Positions 21,417 to 51,650 of a stretch of 64,000 nucleotides of DNA are shown here, piece after piece; position 1 is the stretch's first letter, and each line of letters starts with the position of its first letter. The notes under the pieces are model-generated. The model was not told the DNA's origin. It saw only the letters and a program-made list of their open reading frames with translations, and did no database searches. The stretch spans positions 62,001 through 126,000 of the forward strand of contig CAMPDV010000845.1 in the NCBI GenBank assembly GCA_946699065.1. Reading direction: 5' to 3'. The DNA is from Loxodes magnus. Its lineage: Eukaryota; Ciliophora; Karyorelictea; Loxodida; Loxodidae. Made by a program: the position numbers and the translations under genes.

Positions 21417-22811
21417 TCAGTTATGACTTCTAATACTTCTATAACTCAATTTTTCTAAATCAATCCTCATTATTGAAACTCTTTTCTATTCCACAGCAAA
21501 AGCATATCCATAGTTATTTCTTATTTTCATCTCCGTTAAAGCTACAACATCTTTAAAAATTTAACTTTACTATCATTATTCTTTGTTTCTTTTATATATT
21601 CTTCTTGAATATTATTTCGTAAACGAATTTTTCATACCTCCAAATATGACAAGAGGCTCTAAAGAAACTATAGGATAAGCAATAGCTTCAGGAAGATTCA
21701 AACTTTACTTACTCCATCTATCATTCTATATGTTATATTTTCATATATCTTTTAAACTTTAACTTTTCTAATTTAACCCTCCAAAAGAATAAATATTTTA
21801 TTCATCTTTATCTACTACTAAAGTTTAATCCCCTATTTTAAATGGAAATTAAGAGCAGTTTTATCATTTACTTTAGTTTCCTATCTATAACTTTTCTACT
21901 GATTATAATATTTGATTATTATTAGTAAATCCTCCAACCACATAAAGATAATTTTACGCTGCTGCTATTCCAAACCCACCTCTTCCTTCATTTAGATCAC
22001 AAAGTTTTATTCTATTACCTTCATAATCAAATTATCAAGTTTCTTTTATTCCTTTCTTTTAATTTAAGTTATATCCTCCTATTAAATATAACTTATTTTA
22101 ATATTCTATACTTTTATTTTCAGCAGGAATAATAATTTAAACTTAGACTTATCGTAATTACTCTGTTTAAATATTAAATAAGCTTAATCTTTAAATCCAT
22201 TAATCAAAGAAGTGAATATAGTTAGATTATTTGGAGTGGTAGCTTAGTTTATGTTAATTAGTCTAAATCTTATTTGGCTACTTAGTATTGTATTATAGTT
22301 TTTATCTTATTAGATTGTAAGTTAATTTAGAGTTTAGTATTGTAGGTGGTTATGAGTTATATTAGAGTATAGTTGGTTTTAGTGATTAGTAGAATTAGAT
22401 AATATTTGAGTGTTATTTTTGGTAGATAAATGTTGGTTAATGATTGATGATGATATTAGTTAGTGGTATTATGAGAGTATTACTAATGTTTGATTATTTG
22501 GTTGTAATGGTTTTAGATTTTTCCATAATTTACCTCCTTATCTCTTTTAATTTCTATCTAGCATCTTAAATCTTTTATATGTATTATTAGTTTTAAAATA
22601 TCACTCTTATTAAATCACTTTCTTAAGGTAAATCATCAAATCTAAAATGGAATCCTTTTTAACAAATAGGACATTACATTATGCCTTATAATCAGTACTG
22701 AGTATTCAAACACAAACCACAGTAAATATGTCCACAAGGTAAGACAGTTGGAAGAGCATTAGTTAAGTTGTAATCTTCTAAGCAGATTAAGCATTTTGGT
22801 AACGCTTACAT
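21417..22811 (-). CDS. RING-Kelch protein, paralogue 1
   Basis: ATG at 22811, TGA at 21417-21419, 464 residues, one uninterrupted frame in the altered code. Residues 7-50 form a canonical C3HC4 RING: C7, C10, C26, H28, C31, C34, C47, C50. Residues about 75-205 are an N/Q/I/P-rich low-complexity linker. Kelch repeats follow, with GG pairs at 245-246, 293-294, 344-345 and 391-392 and typical D-I-W-K-Y and D-R-W motifs. In-frame TGA codons fall at Trp positions 40, 259, 316, 357 and 413; 205 and 366 are TGG. RING plus Kelch suggests an E3 ubiquitin ligase in which the Kelch propeller binds the substrate. The number of blades visible is small (about four), so the propeller may be completed by diverged repeats in the linker or tail. 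Start chosen as the only ATG just before the RING. Confidence 0.93.
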
Positions 22812-22989
22812 TTTTATTATTATTTAGACTACAAAAGCTATAAAGCTAATTTATAACAGTTACCATCAAAAATACAGTCAATAGTATCTATTATTACATT
22901 ATTACTTTATTTAGTATCTAATTATATATTTTGGTATAAGTATAAAATAAATAAATGTATATAAGTAAATTAGATGATTAATACAAGCA

Positions 22990-23830
22990 ACGTATATAAC
23001 ATAAAATAATTTATTAAAGTGACTTCACCTTTATTTGGTTTACTAATTAGTCTTTGAGTTTTAAGATGTAAATGAATCCTTCAGGTCTTCTTCAGAGCTT
23101 GCTTCTTCTATTGCATATCGTGTTGTACAGATTTAACCTTTCTTGATTTTAGCAATTTTTCTTCAATCTCAATTAGGTCCCAATATCTTCCTCGTCCTTC
23201 TTTTTTGAGCATTTACTATATCCAATAGTAATTAATCTCCACTGTATAATTTTTTCTTGTAAAATTTTCCTTCTGGAGAACAGTATAATTTTGTCATATT
23301 ATTTCATATCTTTCAATTATTAGATTCTTGCTTCTTCTGAAATACCAGAATCTTCTAAAGATGTATCTAACCTTTTAGCAATAAAAACATCTTATTTTAC
23401 AATATTTCGAGTTATGTCCTATTTTTAAGCATTTTATTCATTTTTGGAATTTTAAAAAATTGACAATTTTTTTCTGATCCGAAAAAGAATTTAAATTTGT
23501 TCTTCTATTACCATAGGATCATTATTAAGATTAGAATTGTATGGTTTATTAATTTCTACTATTTTTTGCTCCGTTTTTTCCAGTTTTTAATTACCTTGCA
23601 ACATCAAGGCTTTAGTGCTTATTTCCGTTTTTAACCATTAATTTTCCTTTTATAATTATTGCACAGTAAAAGTTAGAGAATCTAATCGTTAAATCAAGTC
23701 TAGAAGTGATTGTTGCATTTTTTTGTTTTCCGCTTCTAGAGAGTATATTTCGATTAGAGAGTTTGATTGCTCGATTTCCTGTTAGTTTTTGGTCGATTAT
23801 TTCTTAGGAGCCATTTGATTTATATAATAT
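22990..23830 (-). mobile_element. Zinc-knuckle retroposon, decayed
   Basis: ATG at 23814 (MAPKKQSTKN) opens a coiled-coil region (SLIEIYSLEAENKKMQQSLL). A degenerate double knuckle follows near 23385-23440 (KCLKIGHNSKYCKIRCFYC), then a conserved basic tail (LKKEGRGRYWDLIEIEEKLL, about 23200). A tail of the same type ends the remnant at 43.7 kb. It sits immediately 5' of RING-Kelch gene 1, between its start and the plus-strand retroposon at 24.1 kb. Frame broken; ends approximate. Confidence 0.5.
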
Positions 23831-24059
23831 TTTGAATTAAAATAAAGTAAATTTAAGGTTTATTAATAATTTTATATTGTTGTATTTTACTTAATTTAAA
23901 TATATAGTATTATTTATATATAATATTATTTATATTTTAGTAGCTTAAGTTATTTATAAACAGCTTATTTATATAATTATGCTTAATAATTTTTAGGCAC
24001 TTAGAGAAATATATTTAAAAGATAATCTAAATTTATATAAAATAATAATTATAACTTAG

Positions 24060-24075
24060 ATAAATAAATTAAATA
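24060..24075. repeat. Target-site duplication, left (16 bp)
   Basis: ataaataaattaaata; repeated exactly at 25038-25053. The sequence is simple, but exact 16-bp identity at both edges of a coding element is unlikely by chance. Confidence 0.7.
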
Positions 24076-25037
24076 ATAAAAAAATGGTTGAAGGTTTCAA
24101 AAAGGGAGTTTATACCACCTCCGCAAAAAAGGAGACAAATCCAGAAACAACTTCTCATCAATCTTCTTACACCTAACCCTAATCTTTTTCTTCTTAATAA
24201 CCTGGATTATAACAAGAAGATCGGAAACAGCCTAAAAAAGCGACACATACTGAAACGCCAACGTCGGAGGAGTAAACAAGGACGCAGATGAAGGCTGCCC
24301 TTCACCAAAATGTCTCTGATGTAAATCCTTCTGGCTAGATGAGCATGGAGCTGCTCATCAAAGTGGTCCTAAACCTCTAGGAAGAGGTCAGGAAACTCAG
24401 GAAGGAGAACGAGAAGCTATCAAGCAGACCCAGCATGGATTGCAGGATACTTTAGATCTCAGAATGTCTAACACTGAAAGGGAGATTGATGTCCTATGGA
24501 AGTATCAGCAGGAGCAGTTTAACCAGACTAACTCTTAAGTGCAAAGGATACAAGATTAGAGCCAGCAGATTGAAAGCATCTTGCAAAGTCAGAGAAGTTA
24601 GCAGATCCCATTAGAGTAGGTAAATTCTGATAAGATGGAGATTGAGAATAATCCTCACCAAGAAAAAATAATTGAACCAAAACTCAAGATTTAGAAATTT
24701 TGCTACTACTGTAAAAGTAAATAACATCTTTGGAAGAATTGTAACGGCTTTAGAAAACTCAAGGAGAAACCTTGGAAGAGATAATTATAATAATAAATAC
24801 GAAAAAAGAAAAATTAGATCTGGTGCAATGAAAAAGGGTTAGTTTATAGAATTAAGAAGCCTTCTGAATAAAAAGAACCAGAAGAATTAATTTGAATTAA
24901 TACCGGAAGGAGAAAGAGAATTTGAAATACAAGACTCGCGAGTGTTAGGGCTCGTAAAAAGCTAGATTTAAACTCAAAAACCTTTATTAAGTGGTGATTA
25001 GTTAGACACCACAGACACTTTTTAATAATATTATTAT
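24076..25037 (+). mobile_element. Zinc-knuckle (ORF1-only) retroposon with 16-bp target duplications
   Basis: ATG at 24084 (MVEGFKKGVYTTSAKKE), followed by a T/Q/S-rich N-terminus, NPSGQMSMELLIKVVLNLQE and a coiled coil, then CYYCKSKQHLWKNC near 24700 (exact C-x2-C-x4-H-x4-C) and a short tail (IWCNEKGLVYRIKKPSEQKE). The frame is interrupted, and both unit copies share the same state, so decay predates the 28.8-kb duplication. Length is 962 bp, close to the 946 bp of the element at 19933. No enzymatic domain. Confidence 0.75.
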
Positions 25038-25053
25038 AAATAAATTAAATATA
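25038..25053. repeat. Target-site duplication, right (16 bp)
   Basis: Exact partner of 24060-24075. Confidence 0.7.
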
Positions 25054-25839
25054 TAATTTGTAATAAAAGAAAAGTAATAAAAGAGAAATATATAATATGA
25101 GATAAGAATTAATAAAATAATTATATAAATATACAGATATAAAATATATATGCTTTTAGTAAATACAAGTATTAGTAATAGATTTATAAATTATTATAAA
25201 ATAATATCATCTAAAGCTAAAAAAATTAAGCAATAAACTGCAGAAGGATTTTAGTTAATTAAAAGAGTTAAAAAAGGAAAATAAAATTATTATAATATTT
25301 AAATTTTGTCAAGTTAGATTCAATTTTTAAACTAAAGGTAAAAATACATTTTTTAAGACCCTTTCTGTCTAAATTAATTTATAAAAAGTTAAAAATATAA
25401 AAGGCAACAATATTTTATTAATTTAAAAATAAAACAAATAAAAAGAAACCATTAATTAAAATAAATAAGATAGTTATAAATTTTATTTATGTTATTTTTA
25501 CATATAACATAAATAAAAAATATATAGTTTAATATAAAATTCATTAATTAAACTAAAATTTCTTAATCAGTTAGATATTTATAAGATTTTTAGTTGGCCA
25601 TTAATATTTCAATAGTATAATTTCTTTTTAGAATTTTCTAATATGATATATATTACATGAAATGGAACAATAGCTAATAAAAATTGAAAATAAAATTGAA
25701 ATTGATATACAATAAAATTAACAAAAATATTTTATAGATATTTATTAAGTTAAATAGATATCCTTTTATTAAATTTAATAGCTTCAATTATATTTAAATT
25801 AATTATATAATTAATTTTTTAACTTAACTAAAAATATCT
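25054..25839. other. Very AT-rich spacer
   Basis: Nothing recognised; conserved in unit 2 with small indels. Confidence 0.5.
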
Positions 25840-26580
25840 TGATTAATAGGTACTCTTTCTTATGAATTTTCCCTGTTTAAACAAAGTTTCTCCTCTCTCA
25901 AATATAGCTCATCTTCATCCATAAAATGTCTGTTTCGACATTCCTATATAAACTTCCTCGCCATCAGATCCAATACATTAATTTTACTAATTGAGTTCTT
26001 CTTGGATTTATTTTAGTTTCTCATTCATTAATTTTATTTTATTCTTTAGAACTTTAATTTATTTTTTCAGTTCTTCTATTTCCTCTTTCATTATCTATAT
26101 TTTATTCTGTCAGTTCTGTTACACTAAGGATACCTTGCTCCTATAAATTCTAATAGAATTGCAGTAAAGCTCGTTGTATTTTATTAGGTCTTTTTAATGT
26201 GCTTCTTCAGAGTTAGTTTATACTTTTTGTATTATTATTATAGGAGAGAGGCTTGCTGTTACATTAACTCAATTTTTTTCTTTTTTGAGAATCATTGTTT
26301 GCTCAATTTTCTATAGGTATTGATATTCTTACTCGCTTAAATCCAATTTATTCAATTGCTTTTTCTATCTTTTATCTAATTCATCAGTTTCTAATCAATC
26401 TTTTATAGATTTATAATTTCTTTCTTATAAGGCCTTCATTTAATCTCTAGCTTTTGTAGATATATTTCTGACCGATATAAAGTTAGTTTGAATCAGGAGC
26501 TTTTTATTTTGATTAGATGATTCCAAAAAGCGTGGTTTGATTCCAGAATAATATAAATGGTATTGTCGGTCACTTGATAA
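25840..26580 (-). CDS. Possible coiled-coil protein
   Basis: One minus-strand frame reads without implausible breaks from about 26580 (SSDRQYHLYYSGIKPRFLES) through a long coiled coil (MKEEIEELKKQIKVLKNKIK, about 26070) to GSDGEEVYIGMSKQ near 25950. TGA codons fit Trp. The start codon is not clear. The unit 2 copy (about 54670-55420) carries extra bases that change its C-terminus, so selection is doubtful. It could be another retroposon ORF without its knuckle, or a host coiled-coil gene. Confidence 0.3.
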
Positions 26581-26599
26581 AAAAATAGTTTTCTTTTAC

Positions 26600-27798
26600 T
26601 CTTGATATTAATATTGGCTAAATGTTCTGATATTTCTAGTATTTAGTCTTAAGCCTTATATTAGTTAATAAGCTGCTTATAAATCTAAAATATATAAGAT
26701 GGAGAGTAATAGGGTATAGTTTCTAGACTATGATATGTATAATAAAAATGAGTAAATATCTAGTTTAAATAATAGTAAATTTAGTAATTTAGATATATAA
26801 TGATTTTAGTTAATATTTATACAACTAAATATAAAACTTACATTTAAATTAGCTTATAAACAAATACAATATATATAAACATTACTAATTTAACATTATT
26901 AATAGATCTCATATTTTAAAATTAATTAATCATCATCCACAATTTATAAGAAAGCGTTATATTACTTTAATTCTAAAAATTTAATAGCTTTATAAATAAT
27001 ATTAAATAGAATTAAATAATAAACCAATCATTTTAAGACTATTAGCACAATTTATCCAAAGTCAGCCAAATTCTATATTCTATTATTTTTATGTCATCAG
27101 TCAAATTTATTTTTTCATGTCAATATATAAAAAGTAAAAGAATATATTCTTATGAAAGCGCTCTTTAGATTAAAATTTATTAAAGCAATTTTATTAAACA
27201 AATCAATTAATTATATCTTTTTTATCACCCTGCTGCAAATTAAAAAACATTACTAGAAAGTTTAAATTTTAAATTAATAAGATAAAAAGTAAAATTTAAT
27301 GCTTTAATTTAAAATTTATTTTGTTTAATTCTTAGATAATTTAAATTAACTGAAAAACTAGTTTCAAATTTTATTTTAAACAATTTAATAATCTTACAAC
27401 AATTTAAATAAATTTATCTATCTACTTAATATTTTTAAGTTTAACTGATAATATGAAAAATTAAAAAAATGATAAATAAATTAATTAAATTTATAAAGTG
27501 ATTTAAAAAAATTTAATAATATAATTTAAAATAAACAGAAAGTTTAGAAATGGGAAAAACTAATTAGAGCAACTGTTTAAGGATTTATTTTTACAACATT
27601 TCTTTTCTCTCGTTACCTTTCATATTATGATTTTTGATTTATTTGATTAATTATAACTATTTAAACAAATTTTTTCTATAAAGAACTTTATATTAAATGA
27701 GTAGTTCTTTATTCAATTATTTCAATCTTTTCTATAGAAATAAATTATGCTTCTTTTTAATTATTATCTGTTTTATTTTTATATTTTAATAAAATAAT
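26600..27798. other. Very AT-rich spacer
   Basis: No gene recognised. Unit 2 differs here by indels, including an extra block of about 100 bp near 55870-55950. Confidence 0.45.
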
Positions 27799-28371
27799 AT
27801 GACACAGATTAAATCAGGAATTTTCGAGGCTCAAAAAAGGAGTTATCAACATCTAGAGAGACTAGGGCTAACAAGGAGGCATAAAAAGATCACCCAACCG
27901 AATCAAGAATACTATTATTGAAGAGAACCTTATGAATTAGTTTAAATATATAATTAATTCACTGTTTCTGATTTCACTGCAAAATAGTAAATAAACTATT
28001 TATTAGCTGATTAAAAGTGTCTTTAAATTTATTGAATCTTTTTTGAATTTTTCTCGACTCAATTTGATACAACCTTAAGACATTCCAGTTTCTCCAAATG
28101 GGATTCTTATGTGATCTTGAACCTTGGATTTTTTCAAAACAAGCAATTATTTTAATAGGTATTAATTTTAGAAAAGTGTAAGTTTCCTCAAAACTTAACA
28201 TAATCATCTTTAATATTTGCCTTATTATACGACATGTGAAAAAGGAGATTTTAATCAAGAACCAGGAATCATAGAATAGGAGCAAACCGTCAATCGAGCT
28301 TTAAAACATACGATAATCTTGAATAAGTTAAGTCTATCCTCTAGAGACCGTCGATCCTAATCTACAGTTGA
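27799..28371 (+). CDS. Hypothetical protein, 190 residues
   Basis: ATG at 27799 (MTQIKSGIFEAQKRSYQHLE) and TGA at 28369-28371 are in one frame. The N-terminal 45 residues are basic (LERLGLTRRHKKITQPNQEY), the middle is hydrophobic and aromatic (FSKWDSYVILNLGFFQNKQL), and the C-terminus is again basic (MWKRRFQSRTRNHRIGANRQ). Internal TGA codons read as Trp. GC content is above the flanks. I do not recognise a family. The unit 2 copy (56750-57323) has one extra base and is out of frame, so if this is a gene only the unit 1 copy is whole. Confidence 0.45.
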
Positions 28372-31300
28372 TAGCTTATAGACCAAGCTGAAAGTAGCTA
28401 TAAATAAAATTTTAAATTAAAATAAATATAATATAAATATCAAATTGATTAAATATACAAAATTATGAACAAAAATAATTAAAAAAATAAAATATTCTAA
28501 TAAAATTCTATCCATTATAAAATATATGTAAAAGCAAAAAATCTTAATTTTGGTATTAAAAGAAAAATAATAAGAGTAAAACATATAAAGGAATTTTAAA
28601 GCATTAGAATTAATAGAATTAAATAAAATGTAAAAAACGATAAAAAATTGAGATTGAGCATAAAGGAAATATAAAACTAAAAGAAATAAAATAAATAATT
28701 TAAAAAATTTAATTTAAAAATAAAATTAGATATATTAACACTATTGCTAACAGTATATTATCAATAATTTTTGAATAATATAAATAAAATTTTTAATTTT
28801 ATTATATTTTTAAAGTTATAATGACTTTTATATATTTATCTTTAAAATAATATAAATAATAACATATAAAAAAGCTTAAGTAGGAGTACTATTTGATCAA
28901 ATTAGATGGAAATTATTTATTTGTAAACTGTTCTGATGAATAGCAACATAATTATAGCAGTCGAAAATTTTACCATCGTTGTTGCGCTTTCTACAAAGCT
29001 GGAAATTAAATATTCAAATTTGAAAATTAGGTAATATTTTAAATAAAGCTCTGTTAATTTCACTACTTTGCCAAAAATTTTTTAAAGTATTTGAAATGGT
29101 TCTGATAAATTCAATTAACTGAAGAGGCAAAAAGAAAATAAAGCTCAAAGAAAATGGAATATATGTCCAAGCCATGTAGTTGATATAATTATGATTAGCT
29201 TTATATTTCTTTTATGACACAGTCATTTTTTAAAAAACAAGCAAATTTAAATCGGTCCCATCAAGAGCAAAAAAGCCTGAATTATGATCCTAATATCCAA
29301 TGTTTTTAAACGCTTCTGAATTGAAGCACAAGTAATTTGGAAGAAATACAAATAAACAAAAGTCTAGGTTGAACAACTGCTTCGGACTTCTTATGAAACC
29401 TATATTTGATAGACTTTAAAAATTTCATAATATTTTTTAATCTTTAATATCCGAAAAACAAGAAAAAAAAGGACATTTTAGCACAACCTCTATATTTTTT
29501 CTATCTTTTTGGAGTGTAATTACATTATCTGAATTATTTTATGTAGCTTAATTATTCTCATTTGGAAGAAAGAAATATATTCCTTTAAATCTTTACTGTT
29601 TTCTATTCAGTAATTAAGCACAGCGTACTACTTTAGATTTACAATCTTAAATTACACCCTTTTACCATACTTCATACTGAAATTTGATTCTATATTTATA
29701 TTATCACACTTGGGTAAATATTCATTTCTTCACTGGATCAAAAAGAAAAAATACTAGAATAAACTTTTTTCACTCTAGCAAATTTTTTTCTGTAGTTATC
29801 TTAGCTTAATAATGTGTTATCTAATACCTTTTAGCATTTTCAATCCTAACCATATATTAAAAATATATTTAGTAGCAGTTAAAACATTTCTTTACGTAGA
29901 CTAAAAGGATTTTTTATCATATAATCAAGTTAAAATTTCAGCTAAAATGTTTCTAGTTTTTTTTATCTCTGATCATAATAAGCTACTTAGCCCATCTATA
30001 GAAATAATAAGTATAAAATATCAATTTGAAATTCCAATATTCTCTTATTTAGGTCTAATTAGTACTTATGTAAATTTTAACTATCTAGTTTATATTAAAT
30101 AAGATTTATTTTAGTTCTAGATGATTTTAAATGTAGAAATCTCATTAGACAAGCAAAGCAAGTTTATATATTAGTTTTAATTATTTTTGTTTTTCTTACT
30201 TTAAGTTATTAATTATATTTACCGAATTTCTCTTTGCTCATCTTAAATAAAAGTTGAGTTTAGTTTTTATTTTCTTAAAATATTTAATTATTAGTTTTTG
30301 TTAGCAATATATTCTACATTTTTATTTTACTGGTTGCTTTAAACCTGTAATCTGTGTGACGATATTATAAAATGCAAGAAATTTTGAAAAGTTATTAATA
30401 ATACTATTCAATTCTATAATGGCTTTTTTACACTATTTTATCTTATTCTTCGATCTTTAACTTATATTAAATATATTAAATTACAAACATTTTGCTTTAT
30501 TTCAATTCTGAATTTAGTATCTTTAACTTTAGGAAAACAAAAAGTTGCTCCTTATTTAGAATCTTACTTTATAACCGTTTTTAATTACGTTTATCTTAGG
30601 GGAAATTGTTTTTGCTCAGTTTTGTAACAAGAGCTTCTATTAATCTAATTTTAAGTATATATTACTTTTATTATTTAGCAAGCTTTATCTTATCTCAAAA
30701 GAACTATCTTTAATTTCAATTATAGCTTATTTGCTATTAACTTTTACTCCAAATTACTATTTGACAGTCTGTTAAGTACATTTTATAGTTTAGTAAATAT
30801 CATAAGTAAAAGAGCTCTCTTTAATATGTATATTTTGCTATAAAGTTTAGAATGAGAGCAAATTCTAATCCTAGTCTTTCTCTTATTCCTTTATTTATCA
30901 AGTTTAATATAATTTAATTTTAGATTTTTATAATATATAGTTTTGCTAATAATCATCCTTTCTATCTTATTCTTTTAAAATATTATATCTACTATCTAAG
31001 GCAAAAATAACTGTATTCTCTCTTCTATTAGCTAAATCGAATCTTTGGCAATCTTATAAGATATTATATAAAATATTTGAAGGCGAGAATAAAGAAACAC
31101 TTATATATTTTGTATATTTTATGCCTTACATTACTCTTATCTTTCAAACTCTTTTAAACCTTCTTATTTAATCTTGATTTTTCTCAGAAAATCTTTCATT
31201 TTATTCGAAAATGATTTTTAATTAGCTTAGCTAGTTATTTAGTGTCTATAATTTAAGTTTGCTTATAATATTTTACTTTTGTTAATCTTTAGTTTAATTA

Positions 31301-33000
31301 AGACCAAGAAGTTCCCCAACCTCTTTCTTTTAAAAATTAGCTAGATTGGATTATATACTTAGAGTTTTTATATTTAATTCTATATTCTTTGCGCAGAAAA
31401 GGTTTATTGAATATTCATTTTCTAAAAGGTTAATGAATTTTTAGATCTGATTTGTAACTTGAAATTGACATTTAATGAGGTGGTATGGGTTATCTACTTA
31501 AAGACAAGGCTCGAACTTAGAAAGAAAAGAGCGTCAGGTCTGATTATCGAGCCGTTTTATGATTATTTTAAAATTGAAGTATATATAGCTAAAATTTTAA
31601 TGGTATATTTACCTAATTAATTCTTTGAGGCTATTCTTTTACTTCCTTATAACGTCAGAGAAATTTATTAGAAAGTAACTAAATTTATTACAGCCGAGAA
31701 TTTTATATCTTTAGATACTTTCACTTAAAACACCAAATTAGTTTTAGTCCTCAAAAGAGCTTTACTTCAGCCTGATATATTGAGCTAGAAATTATCTAAA
31801 ATTGATTGATCTCGCAAGGTGTGTCAAAAGTTGAAAGAGCTGCATCTCATATAGCATTTTTCTTCAAATGCTGCTCTATTAGAGTTATTAAAACTATCAA
31901 TTTAATAATCTGAAATGACTTGAAAGTTAGACTTAGTTGATGGTGCTTTAGGTTTTTTATAATAAATTGACCCTAAAAGAAAACGCAGACTTCGTTGAAA
32001 AGAATGATAGTCCTGAAAAGATAAGCATAAGATATAATTTTTTATCGTAATATTACTCAAACTTAGAGTAGATACGATATTTTTAGAAAATAAATCAGCT
32101 AAAATTAACTAATTTTAGTAAAATATGAGTAACTGTAAAAAAGAAGAGTTTAATGCAGCTAGTTTATAAAAAAAACTACAGTTTAATTATTTTAAAATAG
32201 CATGGAAGAATTAAATATGGTTGCATTTAAGTAGAGTAGAACTAACTTAATTAATAAAAAACTAAACTGAAAAAATTTGTTTTAAGCAGCATGAGCTGAA
32301 AAATTAAATTAAAGATGTTGGCGAAGTAACTAAGTGAATAATTTTAAAGTTTATTTGAAGTTAACGTGTCTCAAAAATAAACTTGCAAAAGTAATACTGA
32401 AGAATTAATCAAGCTACTGCTAATTAATTAAAAGCTTCTTGAGGATTAATCATTATCTCCTATTATTTTTCTCACTTTCTACCTTCTGATCTGCTTAAGG
32501 ATACTTATTAAAGTAAAGAGATAGAATAAAAAGGGATTAAAGAAACGTCAAATTAAAATAAGAGTTCTATTTCAAGCTTTTATATTTTTATTTGACCTAC
32601 TCGATTATTAACCGAAATAAAGATAAATTAATAGGAATTATAAATTATAATAAATCAAATAAATATCTAATTCATTGTCAAAGAAAAACAGTAAAATGCA
32701 TTTTAATATTTAATCTTAAATAGCTATGACTAGTTTTAAATCGAATTCTGTTTGAACTGGTTTTAAATTTCTTTATTATAGCATAATTAGATTTATTAAA
32801 AGTATTTTATTTCTACTTTGAATCCGATAAAACTCGCTTTGAGAATTTTACTACGAATATAACTACATTCTCACTTGATATCATATTAATAATTTTAAAT
32901 TAAATACTCGCCTAACAAAATTTCTACTTCATATGTCTATGAAACTTTATTCTTTGTTTAAGTTTATATGAATTTTATGGTGCTGAAATAATTTGGAGCC
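28372..33000. other. AT-rich region with long open frames but no secure gene
   Basis: On the minus strand one frame stays open over most of 28890-31480 with TGA as Trp (for example FFALDGTDLNLLVFQ near 29260, ENTVIFALDSRYNILKEQ near 30980), and another continues above 31560. A plus-strand frame at 28905-29500 also looks plausible. Differences between units 1 and 2 at 28.9-29.4 kb and at 31.9 kb include indels of one and thirteen bases and many non-synonymous changes in every frame, so coding is not supported there. By contrast about 29.7-31.5 kb is nearly identical between units. I cannot assign a gene. Confidence 0.3.
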
Positions 33001-33570
33001 AATTACTCAGAGATTGATCTTACATTAAACTCTTAATTTAAAAATTAGCTATAAGTCTAAATTATTTACTTTGATTATTTAAAGCATTTCTTTAATTGAA
33101 TCTATTACAATTTTCTTTAATTACCATAATATTTTAATCTTTTTCTAGCATGAATTTACATAGCATTTCTTTGTTCAACTTGATTCCTCTTAAATTATCA
33201 GTTCCTTTAGTTAATTAGTTTGATTCTTCCTATTTAATATCAACTATTAATTTAGGGTTGCTTGTTTAGTCTTTTTCAAAGCAAAATTACTCTAATGTTT
33301 GTATTTATGTTCAGGCTCAATAAAAGCTATTTTTTCCGATATTGATTTTTTATTTATTATTAAAAGGGATTACATCTATTAGTTGTGGAAGTGAGCTAGT
33401 TACTTGTTGGAACCTATTTTGTCTAATGGATTTTGTCAATTACACCTTTTCATCATGGTGTTAAACTTTGGCTTTTCCATAAATTAAGGTAGCTTAAATT
33501 ATTTTATCGCAGAATTTATTAAGTTAAATTATTTTTTATTATTCTATCAATTGTTGCCTATCTCGCCCAT

Positions 33571-33584
33571 CATTCAAATTATTA
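33571..33584. repeat. Target-site duplication, left (14 bp)
   Basis: cattcaaattatta, repeated exactly at 33897-33910 around the GC-richer insertion. Confidence 0.8.
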
Positions 33585-33896
33585 ATTCATTTCAACTAAA
33601 AAAGTTTTTAGACCGGAAACTCCTTTCCGATTGCACGACCCAACGCTCTCTTTTTATGGAATAACGGGGATATCCTGTTGTGCTCCAGGCACAGCTGCTA
33701 GGGAGCTCCATCGCTATGAGCAGCCAGGCTTCAAGCCCCTACCAAGACCGGATAATCTCAAAGACAGTGTTCCCTTCAGAAAATGACTCTGACCAGGGAC
33801 TTTCTCAGCGACAGGAAAGGAACTTGTTCCTAGCCATAAAACCAGAAAGTGTTGTCACGAAGGTCATTCTCAGTTCCCACCATCTTTTCAATTATT
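33585..33896 (-). mobile_element. SINE-like 312-bp GC-richer insertion
   Basis: A compact block with about half G+C in a region of about one quarter. It is bounded by exact 14-bp direct repeats, and the homologous LINE fragment at about 18610-18650 shows the uninterrupted site. I found no Pol III A or B boxes and no tRNA, 5S or 7SL resemblance, so SINE is by size and behaviour only. On the minus strand a 91-residue Trp-rich frame runs from ATG 33867 to TGA 33592 and spans almost the whole insert. Also present in unit 2 at 62542-62853 with a few substitutions. Confidence 0.6.
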
Positions 33897-33910
33897 CATT
33901 CAAATTATTA
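33897..33910. repeat. Target-site duplication, right (14 bp)
   Basis: Exact partner of 33571-33584. Confidence 0.8.
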
Positions 33911-34929
33911 GTTAAGTAAATTTTATTCTTTAGGATTCAAATTTTTGCATGCTATTCATCTTTACTATTTCTTATAATTATTTAAAATTTCTTTAGGTTT
34001 TCTATTTTTGTACCTGTATCTTTTATTTTAGAGTGTTATTTCTTGATACGTATTCTACCACTTTAATTGATATTTCAATATAACTGATTATTAGCTTGAT
34101 TGATTTTTATCTTCTGTATTACTTAGTACTTTTTATAATTTTTAGACTGCACATCATCATATTGCCGAATGACTTAACTTTGCACTTAAATTTTTTCTTA
34201 CAGTCAAGTAATAATATTTTCTGTTTAAGTGGCTTTTAATAATTCTAAATACATAATTTTTCTATCATCAAGTTATTATTTTCCTTTTATTTTAGTTAAA
34301 ATTATCTGCTTGATATTTCTGAAGGCTTTTAGTTATTTTTTTGTTTAATTAAACTTTTGTTTATATCTAAAGAGTAGTTAATTAGGTAACTATTATTATT
34401 ATAGTATCAATTAATAATTCACTTCTTGATAGAAATATCAAAAAATTAATATTATCATTTTTTGTTAGATAATTTATTAAGTTATTCTTAATCAAAGAAA
34501 ACAGTTAGAATAAGTCTAGTTGGTATTATTCGTACATAATCTACATGTTATCCAAATTCTCTCTATAGGCATCTGAAGAGTTCCGTTGATGATACACATT
34601 ATTTTATTTTTGCTTTGCTTGTGTTATAACTTTTTAAATGTCTCACTATATTAAGATGAGATAGATTATTCTTATTTTTTAGATGGAGTTTTATACTTTA
34701 TTTCTTTTAAAGTTGCTTATTTTATAAAATTTTATTTTCTGCTAGTTTTATTAGTTTGACATATTTTTCTAGCTTTTTTCACCCTTAGACATCCCTCCTA
34801 AAAACTTGATTTCGATGCTGTTTTAATCTTATTGGTCTATCATATTAATCTCGAAAAGTTATTATGATTGAGTTTTTATCAAGAGTATAGGAGTTATAAT
34901 GGCTTGATTTTATTATTAGCTATAGAAGG

Positions 34930-34945
34930 ACATTTTTAAGTATAT
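34930..34945. repeat. LINE target-site duplication, left (16 bp)
   Basis: acatttttaagtatat, repeated exactly at 41578-41593. The single empty copy lies at 63884-63899 in unit 2. Confidence 0.95.
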
Positions 34946-37900: not shown

Positions 37901-40900
37901 GAATACTTCTACTTAATCTTTGAATGAATTCTAATAGATAAATCTATCAATAGGATCCTATAGTCTACTTATTTTGTACTTTCTCACTTTTATTTTTTCA
38001 GTTTGAAGATGAGTATGGTATACAAATTCAACTGTGAATGGAATATGATCTGAAAATAAGCTATAATTATGAACCTGAAAATTTCTAAATTAATTCATAT
38101 TCAAGTGATTACTGATGACAATATAATCGTTGCAATACATATTTTTATTCCCTTTATGTAAACATGTGTTCATATTTGCATCGTTTATTATTTCTAAATC
38201 GTTTTAGAGAATGAATTCTTAGAATCTATTTGTATTGTCATAGTTGTTAATAGGGTTATCCCCAAAGCCTTATAGTAGTGCGTTAAAATCTCCTAATAAT
38301 ATATGTGAGTTGTCAGGAAAAGAATTAAGGAATACATTTATATATTCATATGCTTCGTCTTTTATATTTTCACTCTTGCTGTTATCTGGCATGTAACAAG
38401 ATGTTATGAATATATTATCTAGTTTGATTGTAACGAACCTCTCTTGAGCTAATTGTTATATGCTATTCTATTCCGTGCTATTAAGTTAATCTCTAACAAT
38501 TAAGCAAACTCCTCCTCCTTTTCCTGAGTTCTTGAAATAGGTCCTATATCCATTAATAAGTATTGGAGGATAGTCTTATTTTTATCACGTTTCATTAATT
38601 GAGAAAATGTCTAAGTCATTATTTCGTATAAATTCTTCCACGTTTAATTGCTTGCTTCCAATTCCATTTATGTTAATATGTCCAAGCTTTATTATGCCTA
38701 TCTCTCTTTGCTTATCGATAGGCATCTTTATTTCTTAATTCTCAAATTCTTGTTTGCATTAATACGGTTATTCTACATTGTTCTCTACACCTCCTTTGAG
38801 TCTTAGTTATTTTTAAAGGACAATATAGTTAATTCTAAAATCAGTTTATAGCAGCGTTTTAACTATATAATTTCCGTTTTTTATAAATCGATGAATTTCT
38901 TATGATGAAGTCAAAACTCCTCCTTTTATTCCTGGTTCATAAATACAGAGAATCTTCTCATTTTGATGAATTTATATGTTAAGCAATTTGGGGCAATTTT
39001 TGATATATTACCTGTAACTTATTATAATGAATAATGTCAATGAATCGTACTTTTCACTCAATTTATTATCGATTTTTATATCTATTTCATTTCCATCACA
39101 CGTAGCATGGCTTAGTTTGCAAGATAAAGTTATAAATCTATTGCCTACTAAAGTGAAAAGATTCTAATTTCATCATTTATTGGACCTTATAAATTGAATT
39201 AGTTAGGCGTCTTTAAATTCGTATTTATTTAAAATCTCTTCAATATTTATTTCATTAAACCCAAATTTTGACTATTTTAAGTTTAAAGTGTCTTGGTTAA
39301 ATTTGGCATCTCTTCAACTTCTCTTTCCAAATTTTGTTTGGCTATCCCAATTCATCACATATGATGTCTAGATATTTGAATTTTCTAAAATTTCAATCTG
39401 CTAATCTTCTTAAATTTAATCACTTAAAAATGTTTATGTTGAAGCATTTCATTTTATTTCTTTCAAGTAAGATTGAGTTTTAACATCTTATTATTTTCTC
39501 TATATTTCTGAAATTTATGCATAGACATTTAGCTTCAATTCTACTTGATGCTCATAATCCTGCATGAGTTAAACATATAATCCGTTTAATTCATTATATT
39601 ACTCTTACAGTTTTCCATTATTCTATTTTGTGATTTATAGTTCTTGTTAAGAAGCAACTAGCTAATGATTGGTAACTACTGTTATTGTTCCTTCATCCTT
39701 AGCATTGATAGAATTTTAAGTCTAAATAACCTAATTCTTTAACTCCATGATTCTTGTCTAACTATAATTGCTTATTAATTTCCCTTTTTTTGTTCATGTT
39801 CAAGCATCTTTGCTATTAATTTTTAAACAGGTTTGTGTTTCCTTTTCTCAAAACTATTTTTATTAACACGAGACAAGCCTTTAGTAGACACTCTATATAT
39901 CTTAATTGATAAATTATTTGTTTAATTTATCATATAAATTCTACAACTTTGTATACTTCAATTCAACGAAGTCGCACTAGGTAGATTGATCTAAGAATAA
40001 TAAGTCTGTACCAGTAGTTAAATCTAAAGTCGATATAGTTGCTTGAGAAATTTAGTTGCTGAATTGAATTTCAATTTATGTTTATTCATTCTATGCCTGA
40101 GGAGTGATTGTTTATGTAAAAATGCTTTTGACTGATTTGGCATATTTATTTTTTTGAAAGCTCAGTTCCTATGATATTTAATAATTCTCATTTTGTAATA
40201 ATTAACACTAAGCCTGTTGTTACTAGCAATTGACTGTGAGTGAATGTACCTTTTAGTCGATCTGATCTATTTTGCTTAATAAATGAAAATTTTCACCTTT
40301 GAGATTTTAGTTAAGAGTTTCTACCTCCCTAAGATGTTATTATACTTCATTATGTCTCAAATTACATTTACTCAATTCAGCTTGAATGAATTAAATTTGA
40401 GTAACCAAGTTGTTTATAATATTTTGGGCTTCTTACTTGGAAGCAAGTATTGCCTCATCTTGTAGTTTAAATGATAGTGTCATGTTCATTAGCTCCTCAC
40501 TAAGCATAGCTTGTTTTACTATACTTTGCTATTAAGTCTAAGTGAGAAGTTAACTCTAAGTTTCCAATTCTTATATTTAAGTTAAAGAAAGATCAGTATT
40601 CGTTTATATTGATTATTATTTATTTGTAGCATTATTTACAAATTATTTGGACTAAAGCATTAACTATTTCTACTAATTATCAAACCTTAAGATTTAATTT
40701 TTATTCTAGATTTTCTTAATTTACTTTTGAGCTTTAAATAAATAATTTTGGTATTATTCTAAGTGTATTTTATATTGTGATTTAATGTTTAAAGTTTCTT
40801 TATTGTGTTACTCATATATATGTATTAGCTTTTCTTACAGAGAATTATTTTTAGTTATGAGTTTTTAAATTCGAAATTTAAGATTTTTGCTTTCATTTAT

Positions 40901-41577: not shown

Positions 41578-41593
41578 ACATTTTTAAGTATAT
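41578..41593. repeat. LINE target-site duplication, right (16 bp)
   Basis: Exact partner of 34930-34945. Confidence 0.95.
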
Positions 41594-42050: not shown

Positions 42051-43445
42051 TCAGTTATTACTTCTAATACTTCTATAACTCAATTTTTCTAAATCAATCC
42101 TCATTATTGAAACTCTTCTCTATTCTATAGCAAAAACATATCCATAGTTATTTCTTATTTTCATCTCCGTTAAAGCTACAACATCTTTAAAAATTTAACT
42201 TTATTGCCATTACTCTTTGTTTTTTTTATATATTCTTCTTGAATGCTCTTTAGTAGAATAATTTTTACCACCTCCAAATATGACAAAAGGCTCTAAACAA
42301 ACTATGGGCCTTGCAACAGCTTCAGGAAGACTCAAATTTTACTTATTTCATCTATCATTCTATATGTTATACTTTCATATATCTTTTAAAGTTTAACTTT
42401 TCTAATTTCCACCTCCAAAAGAATAAATATTTTATTCATCTCTATCTACTACTAAAGTTTAAAAAGCTATTCTAAATGGAAACTAGGAGCAGTTTTATCA
42501 TTTACTTTAGTTTCCTATCTTTAACTTTTCTACTGATTATAATATTTGATTATTATTAGTAAATCCTCCAACCACATAAAGATAATTTTAAGCAGCTGCT
42601 ATTCCAAAGTAACCTCTTCCCTCATTTAGTTCACTAAGTTTTATATTATTACCTTCATAATCGAACTACCAAGTTTCTTTTATTTCTTTCTTTTAATTTA
42701 AGTTATATCCTCCAATTAAATATAACTTATTTTAATATTCTATACTATTATTGTCTAAAGGAATTATAATTTAAACTTAGACTTATCGTTATTACTCTGT
42801 TTAAATATTAAATAAACTTAATCTTTAAATTGTTCAATCAAAAAAATGAATATAGTTAGATTATATAAAGTGTTAGCTTAGTTTATGTTAATTAGTCTAA
42901 ATCTTATTTGGTTACTTAGTATTGTATTATAGTTTTTATCTTATTAGATTGTAAGTTAATTTAGAGTTTAGTATTGTAGGTGGTTATGAGTTATATTAGA
43001 GTATAGTTGGTTTTAGTGATTAGTAGAATTAGATAATATTTGAGTGTTATTTTTGGTAGATAAATGTTGGTTAATGATTGATGATGATATTAGTTAGTGG
43101 TATTATGAGAGTATTACTAATGTTTGATTATTTGGTTGTAATGGTTTTAGATTTTTCCATAATTTACCTCCTTATCTCTTTTAATTTCTATCTAGCATCT
43201 TAAATCTTTTATATGTATTATTAGTTTTAAAATATCACTCTTATTAAATCACTTTCTTAAGGTAAATCATCAAATCTAAAATGGAATCCTTTTTAACAAA
43301 TAGGACATTACATTATGCCTTATAATCAGTACTGAGTATTCAAACACAAACCACAGTAAATATGTCCACAAGGTAAGACAGTTGGAAGAGCATTAGTTAA
43401 GTTGTAATCTTCTAAGCAGATTAAGCATTTTGGTAACGCTTACAT
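42051..43445 (-). CDS. RING-Kelch protein, paralogue 2
   Basis: Same length as paralogue 1 (464 residues) and open throughout. The RING and linker half is almost identical to paralogues 1 and 3; the Kelch half has many substitutions. Trp codons swap relative to paralogue 1: 413 (42207) and 259 (42669) are TGG here and TGA there, while 366 (42348) is TGA here and TGG there. The C-terminus ends RSIRSNN-stop. It lies just upstream (on the + coordinate, right side) of the whole LINE, which inserted 460 bp beyond the gene's 3' end. Role as for paralogue 1: probable E3 ligase with Kelch substrate receptor. Confidence 0.92.
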
Positions 43446-45753: not shown

Positions 45754-48020
45754 ATATTATAGTATTTACTATTATATTCTGTTTGAATAATGGTAATAAA
45801 TAGCGTATTTAGTATATGATTTGATTGGTTTTAGTTACTAATAAAGACTAATTTAGATAACTTAAAGGATTTAAATATTATGCATTTTATTAATAATTTA
45901 TAATATATTTACTAAGTTATCAGCTTATAGTTTTAAACTTTATTTTAACTTTTGTAAATTTTCCTTATTAGCTAGTATTTCTTCAATACTATCATTATAA
46001 TGGATTTATAGAATTAATTATTATATTTAATTGATTAGTTATAGAATTCAAGTCACTTTTCTTTACTCAAAAGTATTTTCTCAATAACTTATAAAGTAAG
46101 AGTTAATCAAATAGGCTAATATAGCTAAATATTTTCTTAAGTTTAAAGAAATTATTTATGTTCTTACCTTTTAATTAGATATTAAATAGTAAGATAATTA
46201 CAGTTTAATGGTGAAAACATATCTGTTTGCTATTCAAATTACCTTTATTTATTTAGTCCATTAAAATGTTTAATTTTTCAATCCATTATCTCCTGTTTGT
46301 TATCTTATGTTAGTATACAATATTTTCTTTATCTCATTAAACTTATTTTTGATACTTTTTTAATTCATTTCTTAAACGTTTTCTTTCTTCTTTTTAAGTA
46401 TCAGCAACATATCCACAAGTTAATTTAACTTCTTATTTTTGCTATATCATTATCTAGCTTAACCAGCTTCAAAGAATATGTAGCTCATTGTGAAGCTTTT
46501 CCAATATTTTTCCAATTTTCAGTTTTTAGTAATATAACCTTCTTACTTATGATCTATATCTGCTATTTTAACAATTAATAGATATCATCTAGTATTCTTT
46601 CCTAAACAATTCTTATGCTAATTATGCTATTAGTCCCTTAAAAAATAGTCTTAAACTTTCTTTTGTAGTAATCTAGGTTGGATCTTATGCTGAATTATTG
46701 CATTATAGTTTTAATTAATTCTAATAGCTACTATCCTACTGGATTTAGTTTATTTGCTACAAATTATGTATATGTGCATTAAATCTCATACTATACTTAT
46801 AAACTTAAATTGCTTTTAATTAGGCTTTCATAGAAACCGATTCATTATTCCTCAAGTAGGCGCATATACATTAAGTAAGATTCATACAAATTACAACCCT
46901 TCCAGTATTTCATTTTATTCCATTTACTTCATACTCTCTCCATATCAATTCTTCTTTAATATATAAAGCCACTCCTTTACTAAGTCTAGTTCCTTCTTGA
47001 GTCACCATAATATATCTTTTTCAAGCATTAATTTACATAACTCTTCTTTGCTCGACCTCTTATATTATCAGTTCTTATGTTTAATTAATTTAAAATATTC
47101 AATTTTCTTGATCTTGATTGTTTGATTCTTTCTATTTAGTATCATCAATTTAGCTTAGTCTTTTTCAAAACCAAAATACTCTAATGTTTGTATTTATGTT
47201 CAGGTTTTATGTATGTTATCTTTTCTGATATTATTTCTTGTTTATTATTAAAAGTAATTGCATCAGTTATGGAAGTTAGTTAGTTACTTATTGAAGCTTA
47301 TTTTTTCAAAAGGTTCTGACAATTCCATTTTTCTCTCATGGTGTTAAATTTTGGCTTTTCTATATATCTAAGTAGCAGAAATCATTTTATCTCAGCATTT
47401 ATTCAGTTAAATAATTTTTTATATATCTTCAATTGTTGCCTATCTCGCATATAATTATTTAAGCAATTTTATACTTTAGGATCCAAATTTTTGCATGCTA
47501 CTCTTCTTTGTAATTTCTTTAGTTTTTCTATTTTTATTTATATATCTTTTATTTTAGTGTGTTATTTCTTGTTACATATTTACCACTTTTTTGATATTCC
47601 AATATAACTGATTATTAGCTTGATTTATTTTTTATCTTCTATATTACTTAGTACTGTGTCTAATTTCTTACAGTTTACATATCATCATATTGCTAATTGA
47701 TTTAACTTTACACGTAAATTTTTTTCTTCCAGTCAAGTAGGAATATTTTCTGAATAAGTGGTTCGAATATTTCTAGGTACATAGTTGTTCCTCCATTAAG
47801 TCCTATTTTTCCTTTTGTTGTAAGCAAAACTGTTTTTTTTATATTTCCAAAGGCTTTTAGCTATTTTTATGTTTGAGCAAGCAGTTATCTAAACCTAAAG
47901 AATATTTTATTAGTTCGTCATATTTTCCTTGCTTTTTTTCTCCATTCTAAAAACTTGATTTGGATGTTACTGAGTAGTTCTTAGTGGTTTATCATATTAA
48001 TCTCGAAAATTTATTATATA
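45754..48020 (-). mobile_element. Truncated LINE fragment, unit 2 copy of module 1
   Basis: Nearly identical to 16920-19180, including the endonuclease-like part; one visible difference is an extra stretch of about 10 bp near 47550. Inactive. Confidence 0.6.
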
Positions 48021-48758
48021 GAAAAATGGTCTCACCTATCTAGCAAAGCTCAAAATGATTACTTAATCGATCTGGAATTTCTCTTAAGTGAGAACCAAAA
48101 GCTATAATATTCGTTTCAAGAGCGACAGAGAAATATAATAGTCCTATAGGAAAGCATCACTGGAATTCACATCAATAGTAATTAGATCAAATAGCACTTA
48201 ACCTTATTCATTCGACTGAACAAATTAATTAGAGAATTTAAGCGACGGAAGCAAAATTAGAGTTTTTCCGATAATATAATCAACAAATTTGTGAAATGGA
48301 TTTCTTAGATCATGTAAAATCAAGGAAACGATCGGATGGACATAGAAGCAAAAGACCCATAGTAATTTATTATCAGGAAAAGAAAAATGCTGATACTGTA
48401 AAAAAATGGGACACAAGATAAGAGACTGTTGGTAGTTATTAAAAAAACAAGAATATAAAAGTCAAAAATAATGGTATAATTTAAACAAGTTGTGATGCAC
48501 GCAAGATGGCAGAATATTCAGAAAAAATGATTGTAAATCACTTAGAATGCTCCTAAATTCAAGCGGCTGAAGTAATTTCAACAAAAGTTGGTTAGGATTC
48601 GACACAGAAGAGATACTGAGAAAGAAAAGATGTAGATTGTCAAGAGATATGATAACGAAGATCGGAACAAATTTAAAGTAGAAGGTGAATTTATTAAGCT
48701 TAACAAAAAATTTGATTTGTGACAAAATAATAATGTTGAAGTTAAGATAATCTATTAT
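48021..48758 (+). mobile_element. Zinc-knuckle retroposon, unit 2 copy (decayed)
   Basis: Copy of 19181-19918, with the same CWYCKKMGHKIRDC knuckle near 48380. Confidence 0.5.
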
Positions 48759-48772
48759 ATTATCTTATCTTA

Positions 48773-49718
48773 ATAATAATATTAATTTTAAGTTTTCCGT
48801 TTTAGGGATTTCCAACCCCGTCAGGAAGACAGCAGTTCATGCTCTCTGCTGTTAAATATAAAAGTTCGGGTCGCCCAATTTTAGCGAGATTGGGAACTCA
48901 GATTTTTCCAGGTTTTCCCTCCTTTAACTTGCCTTGATTCCATCTTAATCTTGTATATTGAACCATCCAGATTGCAATAAATTCTTTTCATTCTTGCTTC
49001 TTCTTTTTTCTTCTTTTGTTGTTCTTTTATCCAATAATTTCTTTATTTCTATTAGAATTTCTAACACTTCCGATAAAAATGTCATACGCTTCCACAGCAG
49101 AAACATTTCTTTTTTATTTTTAATTATTTTTCTTGATTTGTTTGCTCTTTCTAGGCTTCGATTTCCATTTTTATAGCTCCAGTTTCGCTTTACTCTTTCT
49201 TAAAAGTTTACAACTTCTCTTCTACTTTTCCAAGTCTGTTTCTAAAGTTTATTTTAGGATTCGTTAGTCTGACTTTGTGAGATATTCCAAAAGGCGTTAA
49301 GATCTCTTTCCTAGGACATAAGTCTTGACTCAAGTCCTTCTGCTAGGTCTATCTTTGCCATCAGCATATCATTGTCCTTCTTCAATCTCTTGACTTCTTC
49401 CTGGAGGTTCAGTACCACTTTGATGAGCTACTCCATGCTCATCTGGCCAGAGGGGTTGAACTCTGATACCTCCTGATGGAGAACAGACTTCATCTGTTTC
49501 CTCGATTTCTCGCTTGAGGTTGGAGTTTCCGTGTGTATATTCTTCAAGGTTGGCTTTCGTTCGTTTTGTTAGATTCCAAGTTGTTAGTTCAGTGTTGGTT
49601 AAGGTTGTGATAGAGAAGATTGCTAAGATTATTAAGACTTGGTTTCTTGCTTCCTCCCTTCCTTTTTGGCTTAGGAAGAGGTGGTATAGAAGCCTGACTT
49701 GAAATCTTCAACCATTTT
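48773..49718 (-). mobile_element. Zinc-knuckle retroposon, unit 2 copy, with 14-bp target duplications
   Basis: Copy of 19933-20878; starts MVEDFKSGFYTTS at 49715. The flanking 14-bp duplications (48759-48772 and 49719-49732) are kept exactly. Confidence 0.75.
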
Positions 49719-50255
49719 ATTATCTTATCTTATGATTGATTTTTTATCGAGAGTATAGGTGTTATAATGGCTTGGCTTTATTATTGATTATAAAAGGGAC
49801 ATTTTTAATTATAGATTTTAGTTTAAATGATTAAAGGAAATATGTATTTTAAATTTGAAGATGTTGATTTGATGATAGTAGTGATGATTTAATTAGTATT
49901 TAGATAAAGTATAGCTTAATGATAATTTGATTATAGTTTTGATTTGATTAAATAATAATAGAGTAATCTAAGTAGTATTTATATAATTTGAATTTAAGGA
50001 TATAATTAAAGATAGTTTTTTTGACTGAGTTGAATATGTTTTAGTATGCTATAAGCTGTATGTTTTATCTGAATAATAATAATATTTAAATAAAAAATTT
50101 TGAAGATGTTTAGATAAAATTTAATTCTTTATTTATTTCAGACACTTTAAATATTTAATAACATATTTACCTAATTATATATCTTTAAACTACTTCTTTA
50201 TTAATGAGATTATATTTAAATATCATTAATAATATAGATATTATTATTATGTTTA

Positions 50256-51650
50256 TCAGTTATGACTTCTAATACTTCTATAACTCAATTTTTCTAAATC
50301 AATCCTCATTATTGAAACTCTTTCCTATTCTTCGGCAAAAACATATCCATAGTTATTTCTTATTTTCATCTCCGTTAAAGCTACAACATCTTTAAAAATT
50401 TAACTTTACTATCATTATTCTTTGTTTCTTTTATATATTCTTCTTGAATATTATTTCGTAAACGAATTTTTCATACCTCCAAATATGACAAGAGGCTCTA
50501 AAGAAACTATAGGATAAGCAATAGCTTCAGGAAGATTCAAACTTTACTTACTCCATCTATCATTCTATATGTTATATTGTCATATATCTTTTAAAGTTTA
50601 TCCTTTCTAATTTTACCCTCCAAAAGAATAAATATTTTATTCACCTTTATCTACTACTAAAGTTTAATCCCCTATTTTAAATGGAAATTAAGAGCAGTTT
50701 TATCATTTACTTTAGTTTTCTATCTTTAACTTTTCTACTGATTATAATATTTGATTATTATTAGTAAATCCTCCAACCACATAAAGATAATTTTACGCTG
50801 CTGCTATTCCAAACCCACCTCTTCCTTCATTTAGATCACAAAGTTTTATTCTATTACCTTCATAATCAAATTATCAAGTTTCTTTTATTCCTTTCTTTTA
50901 ATTTAAGTTATATCCTCCTATTAAATATAACTTATTTTAATATTCAATACTTTTATTTTCAGCAGGAATAATAATTTAAACTTAGATTTATCGTAATTAC
51001 TCTGTTTGAATATTAAATAAACTTAATTTTTAAATAGTTCAATCAAAGAAGTGAATATAGTTAGATTATTTGGAGTGGTAGCTTAGTTTATATTAATTAG
51101 TCTAAATCTTATTTGGTTACTTAGTATTGTGTTATAGTTTTTATCTTATTAGATTGTAAGTTAATTTAGAGTTTAGTATTGTAGGTGGTTATGAGTTATA
51201 TTAGAGTATAGTTGGTTTTAGTGATTAGTAGAATTAGATAATATTTGAGTGTTATTTTTGGTAGATAAATGTTGGTTAATGATTGATGATGATATTAGTT
51301 AGTGGTATTATGAGAGTATTACTAATGTTTGATTATTTGGTTGTAATGGTTTTAGATTTTTCCATAATTTACCTCCTTATCTCTTTTAATTTCTATCTAG
51401 CATCTTAAATCTTTTATATGTATTATTAGTTTTAAAATATCACTCTTATTAAATCACTTTCTTAAGGTAAATCATCAAATCTAAAATGGAATCCTTTTTA
51501 ACAAATAGGACATTACATTATGCCTTATAATCAGTACTGAGTATTCAAACACAAACCACAGTAAATATGTCCACAAGGTAAGACAGTTGGAAGAGCATTA
51601 GTTAAGTTGTAATCTTCTAAGCAGATTAAGCATTTTGGTAACGCTTACAT
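50256..51650 (-). CDS. RING-Kelch protein, paralogue 3
   Basis: ATG at 51650, TGA at 50256-50258, 464 residues, fully open. Closest to paralogue 1 (its positional partner), with scattered substitutions in the Kelch half and an almost unchanged RING and linker. TGA at Trp 413 (50412) as in paralogue 1. RING cysteines and histidine all kept. It is the third complete member of the family; a fourth module starts at the window end. Confidence 0.92.

Follow-up and report, generated by a model that had tools for sequence, protein, structure and literature searches.

Tryptophan and termination at UGA in a very large, apparently undescribed RING-Kelch gene family of the ciliate Loxodes magnus

Three open reading frames (ORFs) of 465 codons each, all coding for RING-Kelch proteins and all interrupted by in-frame TGA codons, lie in a 64,000-nucleotide stretch of the Loxodes magnus genome (assembly GCA_946699065.1, contig CAMPDV010000845.1, positions 62,001 to 126,000, hereafter the window), which raises the questions of what TGA means within these genes and what kind of family they belong to. 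To judge from the sequence, UGA is tryptophan inside these genes and stop at their ends. According to passages of PMC11441545, karyorelicts use genetic code table 27, in which UGA is the sole stop codon and is also read as tryptophan if it is located at a sufficient distance from the poly(A) tail. The ambiguous code is already known for Loxodes magnus and the window is an independent confirmation of it from DNA alone; what is new here is a gene family that is very large, apparently undescribed and apparently provided with a hypervariable recognition face.

The three genes are located on the minus strand and are referred to as copy A (21417..22811, 464 codons and a TGA stop, with Pfam matches to RING and Kelch), copy B (42051..43445), which represents a second lineage and is 94% identical to copy A over the ORF, and copy C (50256..51650), a duplicate of copy A with 98% identity. 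Internal TGA is found at codons 40, 259, 316, 357 and 413 of copy A, with TGG at codons 205 and 366, and at codons 40, 204, 316, 357 and 366 of copy B, with TGG at codons 259 and 413; the TGAs at codons 40, 316, 357 and at the terminal codon 465 are common to all three copies. A first-pass annotation of this DNA had claimed that three paralogues exchange TGA and TGG, and a codon-by-codon check proved its positions to be exact: codon 413 is TGG at 42207 and TGA at 21573 and 50412, codon 259 is TGG at 42669 and TGA at 22035 and 50874, and codon 366 is TGA at 42348 and TGG at 21714 and 50553. The swaps are therefore real, but the three paralogues are not independent: copies A and C, at 21 kb and 50 kb, lie within one recent 18 kb segmental duplication (16920..34948 paired with 45754..63902 at 97.7-98.5%), so that only two lineages are represented in the window. 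Neither this duplication nor the family's size and variability had been noticed at first pass.

The genome assembly searched comprises 705.73 Mb in 7,843 contigs; the macronuclear assembly of Loxodes magnus is described in part of PMC11441545 as one of 706 Mbp with many repeats and long interspersed nuclear elements (LINEs). A 40-base word from the RING region is present in 1,201 places and a 46-base word in 1,100 (at most three mismatches; no match in the controls), while an exact 200-base word is present in 281. Sequences were read for 59 copies, which include the three from the window, 26 of 38 further best matches, these 29 being biased toward likeness to copy A, and 30 loci that match a 40-mer of the constant part exactly and come first by contig number among the 1,201 places; the copies L042-L061 begin at nucleotide (nt) 12. 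At the six codons that are tryptophan in the majority of copies and lie outside the hypervariable set described below, the 354 cells of the alignment contain TGA 263 times, TGG 82 times and other codons 9 times, with the reservation that the copies are related and the cells not independent. The tally of TGA against aligned residues that the first-pass annotation proposed for the three paralogues, made here over 59 copies, thus gives mainly TGA or TGG at these codons, and the ratio of TGA to TGG over the 59 copies is 320:95. Codon 40 in its exact 35-base context (one position C or G) is TGA in 738 places genome-wide and TGC, TGG or TGT in a single place, which is TGG, although this context belongs to the homogenised part of the gene, so that the 738 places are not independent.

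A pattern of this kind might also be expected if the ORFs were pseudogenes of a ciliate with table 6, where TAA and TAG are glutamine and TGA is a stop, that had accumulated nonsense mutations, as TGG turns into TGA by a single G-to-A change, the genome is AT-rich and some copies do contain frameshifts. We give this explanation next to no credence, since TGA at the Trp-majority codons swaps with TGG and seldom with other codons, and since the reading frame remains under constraint between and after the internal TGAs. The omega values of ordinary codons are 0.09-0.66 in each of the seven inter-TGA segments from codon 188 on, with 0.44 in the segment 3' of codon 413. When insertions and deletions (indels) were counted per copy in 36 copies against copy A, only 11 were found in the ORF; eight of these preserve the frame, being multiples of three in length, and the final 300 bases are free of any. 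In the 104 bases 3' of codon 465 there are 78, and for 72 of them the length is not a multiple of three. Constraint on the frame through the internal TGAs, together with mostly in-frame ORF indels and the loss of both past codon 465, means that selection sees the frame up to the last TGA. That last codon is TGA in 59/59 copies and coding constraint stops there, in agreement with the claim that the genes end in TGA.

Profile matches also speak against pseudogenes, as tryptophan is the best residue at TGA for the Kelch motifs and for a kinase. When TGA in copy B was set to each of ten residues and the products were scored with hmmscan, tryptophan gave the top score for Kelch_1 (55.7, with Phe second at 49.0), Kelch_4, Kelch_6, ATRN-LZTR1, NANM, zf-RING_UBOX and zf-RING_2, was ahead by 0.1 bit for zf-RING_5, and was the only residue with which Kelch_2 and Kelch_3 matches appear. 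The kinase is encoded by a gene segment at 7475..8548 on the minus strand (PF00069, 104.1 bits with TGA as Trp), where the TGA reported in QWMAPE is indeed present at 8048, in HQ(TGA)MAPE, and a second one at 7997 lies within SDI(TGA)SLGC (SDIWSLGC with Trp), at a position where kinases carry tryptophan. Tryptophan was best for both families tested in the kinase, with tyrosine next (for Pkinase, 102.4 against 104.1).

A similar comparison is offered by a LINE at 34502..39499 on the minus strand (endonuclease ~38045-38677, reverse transcriptase ~36359-37132; in-frame TGAs at 37118, 37109, 36962 and 36581), and a related decayed and frameshifted relic on the same strand at approximately 1300..4480. 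TGA and TGG are swapped between the two at three positions (TGA 37118/TGG 3116, TGG 37478/TGA 3473, TGA 36581/TGG 2587), and TGA is present in both at four more. The last of the swapped pairs, noticed at first pass before the ADD motif, is there, although it shows up when the relic is read in one of its three frames and not in the other two.

Several observations weigh against reading TGA as tryptophan. In copy B, Leu (87.4), Arg and Gly all outscore Trp (73.8) for PF24681, and a zf-C3HC4 match passes the cut-off used when TGA is Arg, Gln, Ser or Lys and is missing when it is Trp, so that the profile-based codon assignment, run on copy B and the kinase, favours tryptophan for most families rather than for all. 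TGA 37655 of the LINE stands opposite AAA in the relic and TGA 35519 opposite TAG, and many TGAs of the relic stand opposite other codons; such stray TGAs also speak for the pseudogene explanation.

The remaining two stop codons of the standard code are frequent glutamine codons, as had been claimed: copy A has TAA or TAG at 53 and CAA or CAG at three of its Gln-type codons. The suggestion of table 27 or something near it is consistent with these tests, PF24681 and zf-C3HC4 excepted. In the karyorelict ambiguous code of Loxodes and Parduczia, as here, TAA and TAG stand for Gln, whereas TGA is Trp within a gene and terminates it, and no feature differing from that system was found here.

As to how UGA may be decoded, an initial tRNA-Trp pattern search gave no match, while a Trp-type anticodon arm pattern was found in 140 places in the genome versus 11 in a reversed control. 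Among the 100 places listed, 94 have one and the same CCA arm; they form two tandem arrays with 48 members on C67 and 46 on C148 (C67:482293-491201 and C148:155464-167931, with a spacing near 187 and 241 bases). No tRNA is called by ARAGORN at the three that were examined of the other six. ARAGORN calls tRNA-Trp(CCA) at three C67 loci, and the 40 C67 tRNA copies scored (174 candidates) are identical over 72 bases. In these C67 copies, the ones in which position 27 was read, A27 is opposite C43, which leaves four pairs in the anticodon stem. It should be counted against this tRNA that RNAfold alone yields no cloverleaf for it, though ARAGORN calls it tRNA-Trp. The tRNA-Trp(UCA) gene that the first-pass annotation proposed to look for was not found with a pattern using canonical spacing and loop bases only, which had one match versus 11 in the control. 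Passages of both PMC12005148 and PMC13092985 credit Swart et al. with the report of a short-stem tRNA-Trp(CCA) in Loxodes.

The release factor eRF1, in which a change had been anticipated, does carry one. It is encoded by two genes (L010 and L011) situated 35 kb apart on C196, and both have Ala at Ser70 (human numbering, set by eye from NIKS), the motif being RAQNIKS in Loxodes where the usual one is TASNIKS. Both copies have TGA at the expected C-terminal end, and the Gln residues of GGQ, GENGFNQ and EGSQF are encoded by TAA or TAG, with these motifs and the position of the end being those of human eRF1. All four tryptophans of eRF1 are TGG, unlike in the RING-Kelch family. In Blastocrithidia, according to part of PMC12153298, replacement of Ser70 by Gly goes with UGA read-through; the residue is Ala here. 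The Blastocrithidia and Condylostoma system with a 4-bp stem resembles the present one in the 27:43 mismatch (A.C), in that no UCA tRNA was found and in the replacement of Ser70. It is likely that the tRNA-Trp(CCA), with its mismatched 27:43 pair and 4-bp anticodon stem, would read UGA as a near-cognate codon, while eRF1 with Ala at Ser70 would be inefficient in terminating at UGA unless the poly(A) tail is near; both sequences were read here, and for the competition between the two we rely on published work.

The genes themselves are divided into two halves with different histories. The constant island of copy A (22272..22861, minus strand, approximately -50 to +540 of the ORF) includes the start, the RING and the linker, and in the 37 copies used for the diversity profile and the indel counts its nucleotide diversity is near zero within each of two classes, compared with 0.1-0.3 upstream of the island and 0.04-0.12 in the Kelch half. 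Between nt 12 and 450 there is no variable site in 29 copies, silent sites included; 32/59 copies are identical there and 18/59 have the same sequence with two fixed differences, the class-fixed differences being at nt 112 and 208. In three copies, on two backgrounds, 41 nt of the RING (nt 97-137) are replaced by an alternative patch, with few differences outside the patch and with 17 of its 18 differing sites alike in all three. The block-like appearance of this patch on two backgrounds indicates short-tract gene conversion, and homogenisation of the RING half at the nucleotide level in the sampled copies bears the mark of it. In the copies with the patch (L077, L087, L091) the tryptophan moves from codon 40 to codon 39 and codon 46 is also Trp, both being TGA.

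The invariance of silent sites in the 29 copies, and the almost G-free coding strand at nt 300-450, could instead reflect selection on the nucleotide sequence itself, for example an overlapping RNA or a DNA signal. We consider this rather unlikely, as the class-fixed sites at nt 112 and 208 and the patch on two backgrounds show that the sequence does change and is copied in blocks. The G-poor stretch extends through the linker inside the island (1-5% G, 18-25% C; window 22252-22511, minus strand, nt 301-560 of copy A). An assembly or polishing artefact was considered because the arrays consist of long repeats and, in the large contigs seen, are located near contig ends; it is very unlikely, given that polishing should homogenise the whole repeat and not about 590 nt between variable flanks, and that the assembly was made from HiFi/CCS reads according to part of PMC11441545. 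The position near contig ends had also suggested subtelomeric arrays, but the outermost 600 bases of six contigs contain no telomere-like repeat and the idea is unsupported.

The Kelch half (codons ~188-464; 21420..22250 in copy A, minus strand) is hypervariable according to the variability analysis. Kelch motifs and a six-bladed fold are found in the protein by Pfam and in the predicted structure, and 21 of the 22 hypervariable codons, defined by an entropy above 1.5 bits, are on one side of the propeller, the side that in KEAP1 binds the substrate. Within 10 bases the linkage between sites is r2 0.17 and it falls to ~0.04 beyond 50 in the 47 of 59 copies that are gap-free in codons 188-465, a decay that suggests short recombination tracts, to which recurrent mutation would add; in class 2 alone (13 copies) r2 stays higher, at 0.11-0.14 beyond 10 bases. 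The same 47 copies display 42 distinct residue combinations. A diversity-generating retroelement was considered as a source of this diversity; the codon lists are not visibly tied to one template base, although the template itself was not sought.

There are several reservations about a diversified recognition face. The propeller-side test is based on strands merged and trimmed by the author from a DSSP list, and residues that DSSP places outside strands are not over-represented as such among the hypervariable codons (12/22, p 0.22). Four of the five AlphaFold models, built with 42 of 45 sequences as input (L003, L043 and L081 left out), failed with pLDDT 33-38, and a full-length model from 3 sequences was useless (pLDDT 27.9) and was discarded. 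Taken over the entire Kelch half, omega does not reach 1 (0.59 from pairwise comparisons and 0.66 on a tree of 44 distinct sequences), the value of 1.92 for the 22 hypervariable codons refers to sites chosen for their variability, and the ten site tests below 0.05 are uncorrected. Furthermore, whole-gene status is known for the 59 places read out of more than 1,100, and some of these copies are broken or gapped (a 2-base deletion in L081; also L063, L065, L071 and others).

Concerning function, Pfam finds only RING (zf-RING_UBOX 1.9e-09, zf-RING_2 3.8e-08) and Kelch-type domains in the proteins, and this architecture would fit E3 ubiquitin ligases, with the activity and the targets being our inference from it. 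The constant half is probably catalytic and the variable half a receptor; the genes most likely encode E3 ligases, for which a repertoire directed at changing targets would be the simplest function. In the sampled copies the 5' RING half is homogenised and the Kelch propeller is recombined over short tracts and diversified on one side, which would provide a repertoire of substrate pockets. With high confidence we regard the table-27 code plus a RING-Kelch E3 repertoire as the joint explanation of the locus. A more far-reaching interpretation, quite possible but tentative, is that Loxodes, a single-celled organism, has a germline-encoded recognition system of about 1,000 RING-Kelch ligases, with a constant effector half that gene conversion keeps identical and a variable sensor half diversified on its substrate side and reshuffled over short tracts, like an innate immune or allorecognition repertoire.

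The copy number might, however, be due to transposition or array growth and not to selection for a repertoire, with the RING-Kelch ORF being carried along by a mobile element or belonging to a large satellite. The very high copy number, the unit of ~2 kb common to more distant copies and the abundance of repeats in L. magnus genomes, mentioned in part of PMC11441545, would agree with this, but the same-strand arrays with copies mostly 7-20 kb apart among the places listed look more like unequal crossing-over, no transposase was seen in the few neighbouring ORFs scanned (a scan that was not exhaustive), and a hypervariable ligand side is unexpected for passive cargo. This origin is accordingly held to be unlikely, and a ligase repertoire is preferred.

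The closest comparisons are the Kelch domains of KEAP1 and KLHL12, substrate receptors of ubiquitin ligases, from which the present proteins differ in that the Kelch domain is fused to a RING, that there are very many near-identical paralogues and that identity is 13-19%. KEAP1 and KLHL proteins carry BTB-BACK. Fungal NLRs with high-identity WD40 repeats (het-d, het-e, hnwd) likewise have a beta-propeller recognition domain with hypervariable positions under concerted evolution. There, repeats within a single gene are homogenised and shuffled, whereas in the present family the contrast is between the halves of entire genes, RING being constant and Kelch variable. The NACHT-type NOD and the WD40, TPR or ANK repeats of fungal NLRs are not found by Pfam in the RING-Kelch proteins, and the likeness is one of principle only. 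Among the matches listed in open-licence PubMed Central text, no report was found of Kelch in Loxodes or karyorelicts or of hypervariable Kelch ligases in ciliates or protists, and the word 'kelch' is absent from the main text of PMC11441545.

Elsewhere in the window, a diverged Kelch fragment about 73% identical to the RING-Kelch genes is located at 13600-13881 on the plus strand, and a TPR-repeat gene with 102-base tandem repeats (8937-9764, minus strand) adjoins the kinase. Of ten ORFs scanned against Pfam at E 0.01, nine had no match and the tenth is a TPR gene; a segmentation by hidden Markov model (HMM) over-called coding sequence and was used solely to pick frames.

To the known code the present data add a clean count of 738 TGA to one TGG at one codon and the replacement of eRF1 Ser70 beside a short-stem tRNA. 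Immune and antigenic systems are known to include very large families of hypervariable genes in which one half is constant. Repeat masking, or gene finding with TGA as a stop, would hide genes like those described here. If the interpretation is true, and a free-living ciliate possesses a family of this type built on ubiquitin ligases, it could be tested whether single cells keep in their germline a repertoire directed at parasites, symbionts or mobile elements.

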